In this document: positions 14,328 through 40,245 of the stretch, piece by piece
Position numbering within the stretch: the stretch's first letter is position 1
Layout: each line of letters begins with the position of its first letter
Position numbers and translations under genes: made by a program
Assembly (NCBI GenBank): GCA_024276935.1
Contig: JAJRWH010000023.1
Span: 1-64,000, forward strand
From: Deltaproteobacteria bacterium
Lineage (GTDB): Bacteria; Desulfobacterota; Desulfuromonadia; Desulfuromonadales; Geopsychrobacteraceae
DNA: 64,000 bases
Direction: 5' to 3'
The notes under the pieces: generated by a model
The model's input: only the letters and a program-made list of their open reading frames with translations
The model's database searches: none
What the model was told of the DNA's origin: nothing

Positions 14328-14834
14328 TTAGCTGGCAACCTGAAGAATACTCGACAGGCGTTCTTTCCGGGCCATATCAATCTCGGTCTCCAGATCAAAC
14401 GAGGATTTTTCGCGCGAATATACTGCATCCCCGAAATAGCGCGAAAACAACCGGTACCCCTCCTGACCCTCCGGGCCAGAGCCGGGATAATGACGAGAGT
14501 AGGCTTCGGGCGGCGGGAAACTGACCGAAGCGTCTGCCTCTTCACTGGCAAAGGCAATCTCGTAAACCTGACAACTGAAAAGATAGAGCAGGTACTGCAC
14601 ATCCAGAGCTATTTCCTGCGCTTCTTCGCTGCGAGCAAAACGCAGGGCTGTTCGACAGCGATCATGCAACGCAAGAAAGGTTCGCTGTGACGTGGCAACA
14701 ATCTGAAAAAGGTCCTTGCGGGTTCCTCGACCATGGCCCTTTTTAAGCTCTTCCAGACCGCGTTTCTTACCCCCCTCGAGCAAACGCAGGACTCCTTCAG
14801 AACACTTCTCCAGATAACCGATCAACTCTTCCAT
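14328..14834 (-). CDS. Conserved-looking hypothetical protein, helical
   Basis: Product of 168 residues, not recognised. It begins MEELIGYLEKCSEGVLRLLE and is mostly alpha-helical by residue pattern, with a basic stretch near residue 25-40 and a proline/tyrosine-rich loop around residue 110 (PPPEAYSRHYPG). There is no signal peptide or membrane segment. Codon use and the absence of competing frames support a real gene. It lies between hypF, 99 bases downstream, and the IS200-like relic 48 bases upstream of its start. No function can be inferred from the neighbours. Confidence 0.65.
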   Translation of the reverse strand: MEELIGYLEKCSEGVLRLLEGGKKRGLEELKKGHGRGTRKDLFQIVATSQRTFLALHDRCRTALRFARSEEAQEIALDVQYLLYLFSCQVYEIAFASEEADASVSFPPPEAYSRHYPGSGPEGQEGYRLFSRYFGDAVYSREKSSFDLETEIDMARKERLSSILQVAS

Positions 14835-14881
14835 CGCTCTATTTCCCCATTTCCAAGGTTCTTTTTTAATAGGCTTTGATC

Positions 14882-14969
14882 GGGTTTAATTCCCCGCAGC
14901 TTGCTGCGTGACTTAGCAAAGGTTGCAGGCTGTTGATACCCCGTAGCTTGCTGCGGGGTGATTCATTTG
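14882..14969 (+). mobile_element. 88-bp non-autonomous IS200-like relic (both ends, no transposase)
   Basis: The left part (14882-14908) matches the transposase-proximal end of the IS at 38679-39197: both carry ATTCCCCGCAGCTTGCTGCG preceded by GGGTT and one or two bases. The right part (14934-14969) matches the other end of that IS: TGATACCCC, an imperfect hairpin ending GCGGGG, and a shared TTCATTTG. Hairpins are at 14895-14908 and 14939-14958, each with a TT loop. Only about 25 bases separate the two ends, so this is a minimal derivative that could be moved in trans by the TnpA encoded further along. Confidence 0.75.
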
Positions 14970-15069: not shown

Positions 15070-15690
15070 CTAGAGTCGTGTTGCACGACCAATAATCATG
15101 GGAGAGGCAACAGCCGGGGCTCCCAGCATGACCTCCTGACGAAGGTCGAGTTGAAAACCGGTCGACTCAAGCAAAAGAGCTGTCTGCCTGGTCAGATGAC
15201 AATTACAGGCGAGAGGTCGCCAGAGCGGCTGCCAGAACCGTTGCCAGAAAAAAAGACGGGCATCCTGGGCGGCAACGTGCTCCATGAGCACCAACTGACC
15301 GCCAGGTTTCAAAACACGAAACACCTCTCGCAATGTCTGTTGCGGGTCAGCAACTGAGCACAACACCAACGTCGAAACGACAACATCAAGACTGGCATCC
15401 TCTACCGCCAGACATTCGCCAGGCCAATCGTAAACCTCAGCCCCGGGTAAAGAGACTTGACGCAGGGCCGATTCTAGTTTTCGCCGCATGGCATCATCGG
15501 GCTCACAAAGAACAAGTCGCTCAAGCGCAGAAGAATAATGTGGCAGATTTGCACCGGTGCCAGCACCGATTTCAAGAAGGGTTCCCTGGAGATCGGCCAT
15601 CAACTCACTGCGCCAACGACGCAAACACAAGGATTCAACCTTGCTTATGGCCTGATCATAAATCTTCGCTACCAAGCGACGATATAGCAA
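15070..15690 (-). CDS. Class I SAM-dependent methyltransferase
   Basis: Product of 206 residues of the Methyltransf_11 type. Motif I is LLEIGAGTGANLPHY (about residue 35-49), then an acidic residue after strand 2 (LVLCEPD), motif with DASLDVVVSTLVLCSV, and FRVLKPGGQLVLMEHVAA. These are the SAM-binding elements; the substrate is unknown, with resemblance to UbiE/phosphatidylethanolamine-type methyltransferases such as METTL7-like proteins. The start is a TTG at 15688-15690 with GGGAG 5 bases upstream. The next gene upstream on the same strand ends 18 bases before it, so the two may be cotranscribed. Confidence 0.85.
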   Translation of the reverse strand: MLYRRLVAKIYDQAISKVESLCLRRWRSELMADLQGTLLEIGAGTGANLPHYSSALERLVLCEPDDAMRRKLESALRQVSLPGAEVYDWPGECLAVEDASLDVVVSTLVLCSVADPQQTLREVFRVLKPGGQLVLMEHVAAQDARLFFWQRFWQPLWRPLACNCHLTRQTALLLESTGFQLDLRQEVMLGAPAVASPMIIGRATRL

Positions 15691-38626: not shown

Positions 38627-38711
38627 ATCACTTTCTCCCTGATCTGAATTCAGCACAAAAAAGTTTATCTTCTCTGATCAAATGAACTACCCCGCCGCAA
38701 GCAGCGGGGTA

Positions 38712-39158
38712 TCAGAATAGTTCCAACTGATCGTCACGGTGCAACACTTTGTACTCTTGTTGACCTTGACCCTGAACGTAACTTTTGACCGTGCCCTCAT
38801 TCCCATGGCGACCGACGGTACTAGCGAAATACCCATCAGTCCATAATTCGCCGCCCCATAACTGCTTTTTTACCTGAGGGCAACGCTTGAATATCTCACG
38901 CGCTGTCAGACTTTTGATGATCGTCACAAGTTTAGTAACGCTGTAGCGCGGTACCGACTGCACCAGAAGATGGATATGGTCTCTATCCGTACCGATTTCC
39001 AAAAATTTGATTTCATATCGTTGCTCAATTGCTAAGCATACGTCTCGAAATTCTTTTTCAACCGTGTCGTCAAATATGGCTCGACGATACTTTGCTGGAA
39101 AAACCAAGTGATACAGCAAAACGGTTACATTATGACTCTTATGTATATACTCGCTCAT
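38712..39158 (-). CDS. tnpA: IS200/IS605 family transposase TnpA (Y1 HUH)
   Basis: Product of 148 residues, the full family length. It starts MSEYIHKSHNVTVLLYHLVF, has the HUH motif HIH at 61-63, and the catalytic tyrosine in KSYVQGQGQQ (Tyr127) on the helix with the supporting glutamine at 131. It would cut and join single-stranded DNA at the two hairpin ends. All key residues are present, so it is likely active. The ATG at 39156-39158 sits in the loop of a perfect hairpin, and no ribosome site is visible. The longer frame upstream would cross the element end. Confidence 0.93.
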   Translation of the reverse strand: MSEYIHKSHNVTVLLYHLVFPAKYRRAIFDDTVEKEFRDVCLAIEQRYEIKFLEIGTDRDHIHLLVQSVPRYSVTKLVTIIKSLTAREIFKRCPQVKKQLWGGELWTDGYFASTVGRHGNEGTVKSYVQGQGQQEYKVLHRDDQLELF

Positions 39159-39167
39159 GCGAGTATA
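39146..39167 (-). promoter_or_regulatory. Hairpin with the tnpA start codon in its loop
   Basis: TATACTCGC (39146-39154) and GCGAGTATA (39159-39167) pair perfectly over 9 bp. The 4-base loop holds the ATG of tnpA. Low transposase synthesis through 5' stem-loops is known from IS200; this form, with the start codon itself in a tight loop and no Shine-Dalgarno site, would have that effect. Confidence 0.65.
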
Positions 39168-39204
39168 ATCGCAGCAAGCTGCGGGGAATTGAACCCCTAG
39201 AGAT

Positions 39205-40245
39205 TCAACCCGTCTGTTTTTCAAGTTTGCCTTTCAACTGCCCACAGGCCGCTGAAATATCCTGGCCCTTGCTCGCCCGACGAATTGCGACGATATTCCG
39301 GTCGAGCAGGTAGCGCTGAAATTCATCTACCGCCCGGGCAGAGGGCCGTTTAAAAGCTGACCCCGGGTGTTCGTTGAACAGAATCAGGTTGACTTTGGCG
39401 CGTAAACCATGAAGCAATTTAACCAGACGTTTGGCGTCGGCCCGGGTGTCATTGATACCGCCGATTAAAATATATTCAAAAGTAATCCGCTGACGCGGCT
39501 CAAGTGGAATCTCGCGACAGGCCTTCAACAGCTCGGCAAGAGGATATTTCTTGTTGATTGGCATCAGGGTGTCACGCAACTCATCAGTGGTTGCATTCAG
39601 TGAAACGGCCAGCCCGACCTTGACTCTTTTTGCCAGTTCGTACATCTGGGGCACCAAGCCTGAGGTTGACAAGGTTACCCGTCTGGCCCCATAACCACAG
39701 CCATCATCCAGATACAGAATATCCAGAGCCTTCACCACATTGTCCAGATTGTGCAAAGGCTCACCCATCCCCATCAGAACGATATTGTGCAAGGGGCCGT
39801 CCTTGAGTGAAGCACAGACCTGATTGACAATCTCGGACGGGTCAAGGTTGCGCGTCAAACCAAAAGTCCCGGTTAAACAAAACTGACATTGCATCGCGCA
39901 CCCGACCTGAGTCGAAATGCACAGGGTGTCCTTTCCACCATCCATCGGAATACGTACCGCTTCAACTGTTTCCTGATCATTGAGTCGGTAAAGATATTTA
40001 CGCGTTCCGTCCGTAGAGGTTTCGACAACCTCAGGTTTCCAGTCCGAAATCAAAAAGCGCGACTTCAGCTCATCGCGCAATGTTTTGGAGAGATCTGTCA
40101 TCTCGTCAAAAGAGGTCACCCTGCGGGCATAAACCCATTTGACAATCTGACGTGCACGAAAGGCCTCTTTTCCCATGCCGGTAAGTTGTAAAGTCAACTC
40201 AGGAAAAGTCAGATTTTTAATGTCGATCAGCTGGTTTGAACCCAT
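39205..40245 (-). CDS. rlmN: 23S rRNA/tRNA m2A methyltransferase RlmN
   Basis: Product of 346 residues, a radical SAM enzyme. It methylates A2503 of 23S rRNA and A37 of several tRNAs. The CxxxCxxC motif is CAMQCQFC; other elements are [27 protein letters not shown] and the C-terminal [11 protein letters not shown] with the catalytic cysteine. The start at 40243-40245 ([11 protein letters not shown]) fits the family; its ribosome site is weak. A near-consensus promoter lies upstream, and an IS200 element was inserted right behind the stop. It appears to be a single-gene transcript. Confidence 0.95.

Follow-up and report, generated by a model that had tools for sequence, protein, structure and literature searches.

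Between two minus-strand ORFs (14328-14834 and 15070-15690) of the window, that is, of the whole 64-kb stretch of DNA analyzed here, lies a 97-bp element that carries no transposase gene, being too short for one, and that retains at each end a cleavage site, a tetranucleotide guide and a subterminal hairpin (Table 1). The element begins 36 bp before the start codon of ORF 14328-14834. The same window contains an autonomous insertion sequence (IS) of the IS200 type with an intact Y1 transposase gene. The TnpA protein of this resident IS has the HIH motif and a tyrosine at the aligned places and matches chains 2xm3 and 2a6m (the ISHp608 transposase); its nearest named matches come from a Deltaproteobacteria MAG and Desulfuromusa sp. 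Read from its cleavage sites, the resident IS, on the minus strand, extends over about 38681-39202; the first-pass annotation of this DNA had given 38679-39197. The target pentamer of the resident IS, TGAAT (39203-39207), contains the stop codon of the neighboring gene, which we take to be rlmN, so that this stop codon overlaps the left cleavage site.

Table 1 Features of the 97-bp element and of the resident IS, in window coordinates
Feature	Position	Strand	Evidence or remark
Whole non-autonomous element (PATE)	14871..14967	+	97 bp; six identical copies with differing flanks
Left cleavage site / target pentanucleotide TTAAT	14866..14870	+	flank, outside the element
Left guide AATT	14888..14891	+	5' of left hairpin; guide-target covariation; position as in IS608 (available part of PMC5934647)
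Left subterminal hairpin CGCAGCTTGCTGCG	14895..14908	+	covarying pairs, alignment A1 columns 14-27
Internal core	14909..14937	+	common to relatives in other genera (alignment A1)
Possible 4-bp mini-hairpin in core	14916-14926	+	pair counts give no compensatory support
Right guide GATA	14935..14938	+	position and complementarity to TCATT; the left-end rule holds
Right subterminal hairpin ACCCCGTAGCTTGCTGCGGGGT	14938..14959	+	covarying pairs, alignment A1 columns 57-78
Right cleavage site TCATT	14963..14967	+	last bases of the element; copies diverge directly after
Resident autonomous IS200-type element	38681..39202	-	both hairpins present; candidate transposase source
tnpA, intact Y1 transposase, 148 aa	38715..39158	-	PF01797, E 1.9e-37; NF033573, 132.9 bits against a cut-off of 55

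Copies, ends and insertion sites of the element

Base-level alignment in the window's own genome (G000; 2.9 Mb, 131 contigs) identified, besides the window copy, five further copies, one each on contigs C128, C31, C22, C21 and C6. All six agree at each of the 97 positions and diverge immediately beyond them, the flanks being unrelated. These copies redefine the 88-bp relic originally delineated at 14882-14969: the true start is 11 bases further left and the true end 2 bases earlier. The sequence TTCATTTG, originally taken for a shared flank at the right, is the element's own right end (..TTCATT), and the two bases past it are flank that varies among the copies (TG, TG, TA, AT, CT, AT). Three of the six copies overlap no mechanically called ORF of at least 90 aa, and each of the other three overlaps one such ORF, which may not be a gene.

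The likeness of the ends to those of the resident IS, on which the initial description was built, is well beyond chance. The left hairpin motif TTCCCCGCAGCTTGCTGCG is present at 14890-14908 (plus strand) and 39170-39188 (minus strand), a search allowing up to 3 mismatches giving 4 matches where chance predicts 0.04, and the right hairpin (14938-14959) resembles that of the IS, with 4 matches against 0.01 expected; both IS end regions stand in the right order and orientation within the element, with 29 bases between the two hairpins. The stronger assertion that the element consists of nothing but the two ends of the resident IS applies to the left hairpin region, which matches, but not to the outer left bases, the core and parts of the right end. 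The outermost left bases, AGGCTTTGATC, are unlike those of the resident IS (TGAAT followed by CTCTAGGGG); there are 3 differences in the right hairpin and 5 in the 33 bases of the right end; and the 29 bases of the core do not come from the resident IS but are common to the element's relatives in other genera. The pattern of a palindrome-associated non-autonomous element is nevertheless borne out, the IS200/IS605 end anatomy being complete and the guides matching. The two findings that the first-pass annotation named as grounds for rejecting it, absence of further genomic copies and absence of empty sites in relatives, were both looked for and neither arose. The ends of the element are not inverted repeats, and no target duplication was detected at the flanks of the six copies or at the empty sites described below, so the element is not a classical DDE-type MITE with terminal inverted repeats and target duplication.

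At the left, the flank is TTAAT in five of the six copies and TAAAT in one. Empty sites in relatives, for which the first-pass annotation had suggested looking, were sought by joining the six sites without the element and querying them against nine genomes of the genus, and turned up for four of the insertions, two of these being clean. In G005:C521 the C31 site runs on without a break (the joined flanks, 600 bp, have a listed identity of 100%, with 2 mismatches in the 180 bp that were realigned), and the C21 site is empty in G005:C331 (98% over 189 bp), where the pentamer is TCAAT. The window site has a diverged empty counterpart in G003:C61 (75% over 323 bp) with TAAT joined directly to TGTGAG, and the C128 site matches G003:C56 at 94%, with just 10-11 bases aligned left of the junction. 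For the C22 and C6 sites, no match across the junction was found in the nine genomes. The empty sites keep the target pentamer TTAAT or a one-base variant of it.

A different dispersed repeat of about 145 bp, with inverted-looking ends (CAGGCTGTTGAAAAAC / GTTTTTCAGCACCCTG), occurs at many places in the same genome at 87-95% identity (contigs C37, C113, C34, C56, C18, C6, C38, C114 and others). It is probably a separate MITE, and a search of the 64-kb window for its end motif gave no match.

Relatives across the order and collapse to one hairpin

Of the 136 genomes searched in the order, 31 have a match to the 97 bp with an E value of 1e-9 or better, and 59 elements with distinct right flanks were gathered from the order loci. 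Most of these relatives have the same hairpins, nearly constant spacing and a shared core (consensus TTAGCAAAGGTTGCAGGCTGTTGATACC), the conservation of which is partly built in because the relatives were found by whole-element similarity. Alignment A1 comprises 40 of the 49 ungapped elements; six duplicates of kept copies and three diverged elements (L215, L189 and L266) were omitted, and these omissions raise the apparent conservation of the core.

Beyond the order, six other genomes match in a phylum draw of 395 (7 of 395 counting G000). The ends-only elements from outside the order that were inspected (L315-L324) have the same kind of hairpins and a similar length but unrelated cores, such that the core marks the present lineage and is not a general requirement; comparison of these sequences suggests that ends-only elements may have arisen repeatedly and independently. 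One such family is present twice in G383. The core was also considered as the tail of a tnpA gene, and this was rejected: three-frame reading upstream of core-only matches revealed no tnpA at seven distinct places, though one of them, at the start of a contig, is uninformative. At two of these places, L264 (G074:C2) and L270 (G069:C318), around locus position 350-600, core and hairpin form the right end of larger non-coding relatives of about 250 bp with long inverted repeats inside.

Of the cells of the named structure, counted over the 38 distinct rows of A1, 94.2% are paired. Cells changed on both sides number 42, compared to 11.9 in shuffled alignments, and the covariation value is 0.229 compared to 0.130, the signal coming mainly from the left and right hairpins; counted by pairs, those with change on both sides (6) do not exceed the shuffles (5.4). 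The mini-hairpin of the core varies on one side only, with compensatory changes absent, and was rejected as a conserved structure. In the best predicted fold of the free single strand, the two arms of the element pair with each other, left with right, instead of forming two hairpins (z -2.51), which goes against two isolated hairpins as the free-strand optimum but fits collapse between the hairpins.

Such collapse is seen in single-hairpin relatives of about 50 bp. A fused pattern combining the left half of the left end with the right half of the right end has 31 matches at up to 3 mismatches, distributed over 20 of the 136 genomes of the order, in which a reversed control pattern has none. 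At one orthologous site, with flanks aligned over about 800 bp, the element is complete in G033 and reduced to a single hairpin in G024, the two differing by a 47-bp deletion between the repeated hairpins; at a second, G099 and G102 show the same collapse within flanks of about 77-79% identity. A third pair (L189/L235) has orthologous flanks, but its two members are not related by a clean deletion from one hairpin to the other, and it was not counted. The two hairpins would act as direct repeats, with loss of the core and one hairpin leaving a single-hairpin relic of about 50 bp. We do not claim mobility for these relics: by eye, there are no clearly identical copies at different sites within one genome among the 30 single-hairpin loci inspected. 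In Haloquadratum, where palindrome-associated transposable elements (PATEs) were described together with their collapse in 2011, repeat-mediated deletion leaves 52-bp terminal-only forms, according to the available portion of that report (PMC3119063), and this is the sole case of PATE collapse that our literature search, which was not exhaustive, recovered.

Covariation of guides and targets

A pentamer of the form T/C-N-A-N-T is readable at the left cleavage site in 45 of the 59 elements; the other 14, along with 16 of 85 autonomous IS loci, did not parse as pentamer and guide and are not counted here. The commonest target-guide pairs among the 45 elements are TTAAT-AATT (21), TTATT-AATA (10) and TAAAT-TATT (5), and those among the 69 autonomous ISs that could be read, from many phyla, are TTAAT-AATT (23), TAAAT-TATT (10), TGAAT-TATT (7) and TCAAT-GATT (5). 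Target position -4 is complementary to guide position 1 in 34 of 37 distinct rows of the miniature elements (shuffle mean 25.4), and target position -2 to guide position 4 likewise in 34 (shuffle mean 21.7); for the 69 autonomous ISs, the respective counts are 43 (21.0 in shuffles) and 59 (51.7). Not one of 5000 shuffles reached these values for either position pair in either set, a significance that is overstated given that rows, genomes and copies are related. The other target-guide position pairs show no clear departure from the shuffles, the largest difference being about 2.5 rows. The sites and guides given for IS608 in the accessible part of PMC5934647, TTAC/AAAG and TCAA/GAAT, use the same two positions.

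The window element fits the pairing rule at both ends (TTAAT/AATT and TCATT/GATA), whereas the resident IS, located at TGAAT with guide AATT, breaks it at -4. In G090, the miniature elements with guide AATA sit at TTATT, and the autonomous IS read in that genome has AATT/TTAAT. A single draft genome of Microcystis aeruginosa, LEGE 91341, contains an IS of this family in seven near-identical copies, each located after TTAAT (L103-L108, L122); this is a recent expansion.

Parentage, mobilization and significance

The left end of the element matches the resident IS at 27 of 33 bases, including 26 of the 27 innermost with the left hairpin, and an autonomous IS of the congener G003 at 35 of 38. The right end matches them at 28 and 31 of 33 bases, respectively. 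The assembly of G003 breaks its IS across two contig ends, and each terminus was read on a separate contig (L181, L182). Since the G003 IS resembles the outer left end and the right hairpin of the element more closely, the resident IS was downgraded as the direct parent; as judged from sequence comparison, the parent probably was an IS like that of G003, although the resident TnpA could still act on the element. Of the 136 genomes of the order, 11 encode a close TnpA (at least 57% identity, with partial matches counted), namely, 7 of the 31 with the element and 4 of the 105 without it (Fisher p 0.003, from a hand-made table). No close TnpA was found in 24 of the 31 element-bearing genomes. Possible reasons are loss of the gene, a more divergent enzyme or the fragmentary state of many assemblies; in G003, the termini of such an IS lie at contig ends, yet this genome yielded no match in the search. 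G000 encodes two more Y1 proteins (C110:11184-11597 and C34:34915-35304), with 30-31% identity to the resident TnpA, which may be REP-associated.

Taken together, we consider it highly probable that the 97-bp element is a non-autonomous palindrome-associated transposable element (PATE) of the IS200/IS605 type that is moved in trans by a Y1 transposase. Under this scenario, the transposase would recognize the two hairpins and excise the element as a single strand, a route that we infer from knowledge of the family; the element's own guides would choose the cleavage sites; and the excised DNA would be pasted 3' of a TTAAT-like pentanucleotide with no target duplication. Mobilization in trans, like the choice of the resident TnpA or another enzyme as the agent, is our inference from these comparisons.

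The explanations that dispense with such mobility, or assign it to another system, have to accommodate the same observations. The six copies could have spread by recombination or segmental duplication, or else could be a conserved functional intergenic sequence, such as an sRNA or a terminator, as their identity, the conservation of the core in other genera and the position of the window copy between two same-strand ORFs might indicate; given the unrelated flanks, base-precise ends, near-constant target pentamer and empty sites, along with guides that covary with targets and other genomes that have the element at other sites, this appears very unlikely. Even less credible is a relic produced in place by internal deletion of the resident IS or its copy and devoid of mobility of its own: the match at 26 of the 27 innermost left-end bases is what such an origin would leave, but six identical copies sit at unrelated sites, a different IS lineage gives the better fit for the outer left end and right hairpin, and the core does not derive from the resident IS. 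As the sole account, this origin is refuted by the further copies and the empty sites.

We assign a similarly minimal probability to a repeat of the REP/REPtron type served by a REP-associated transposase, for which the two distant Y1 proteins on C110 and C34 would be the candidates and to which the single-hairpin relatives bear some resemblance. Against this reading stand the two ends of the element, with hairpins that point the same way, and its target of the IS200 type; the resident TnpA, the only one of these proteins to be scored, reaches 26.3 bits against a cut-off of 80 with the REP-type model NF047646. REP, REPIN and REPtron systems also consist of short palindromic DNA served by a Y1-type enzyme, and the single-hairpin relics are REP-like; in the accessible text of PMC8266576 and PMC2817692, however, REPs flank the transposase gene in inverted arrangement and the transposases are REP-type, whereas here the ends keep the order and orientation of the IS. 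The REP head at the palindrome is given there as GT(A/G)G (PMC2817692).

We regard a broader proposal as doubtful: the relatives might form an order-wide family of self-targeting hitchhikers, with a separate guide for each lineage and retargeting independent of whichever TnpA moves them, as the differing guides and targets of the miniature elements and the autonomous IS in G090 would illustrate. In such a family the core would have a function of its own, perhaps equivalent to that of the second hairpin of IS608, which limits target specificity. The unrelated cores of similar length outside the order and the mini-hairpin without compensatory change count against a general requirement for the core.

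Hitchhikers of this kind are already known; the family described here is, to our knowledge, new. The PATEs of Haloquadratum walsbyi, as presented in the available sections of PMC3119063, similarly lack a transposase gene and terminal inverted repeats, have IS605-like near-terminal palindromes, cause no target duplication, show strain-specific insertions with empty sites and undergo core deletion to forms of about 52 bp. The present family differs in being bacterial, not archaeal, in sharing one core across families of the order, in having ends of the IS200-type (tnpA-only) lineage and in the guide-target covariation documented here. The PATE-like element of Halanaerobium hydrogeniformans is likewise a bacterial ends-only derivative of an IS605-type element but, in the excerpted account of PMC7290912, is a single 271-nt copy, in contrast to the six identical copies and order-wide family in our case. 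With IS608 and ISDra2, as far as the accessible part of PMC5934647 describes them, the element shares subterminal hairpins, cleavage sites, tetranucleotide guides 5' of the hairpin base and insertion 3' of a short target; those elements are autonomous, whereas ours is not, has a TTAAT-like target and, in the window, has hairpins with no bulge. A literature search, which was not exhaustive, found nothing naming Desulfuromonas with IS200 and miniature elements and no survey of guide-target covariation across natural elements, the key IS608 retargeting papers being outside its scope.

The family provides a natural data set for the targeting code of the IS200/IS605 elements, in which guide and target have changed together, in the element and not in the enzyme. 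The collapse from two hairpins to one at orthologous bacterial sites also offers a plausible path by which IS ends could become solitary, REP-like palindromes.
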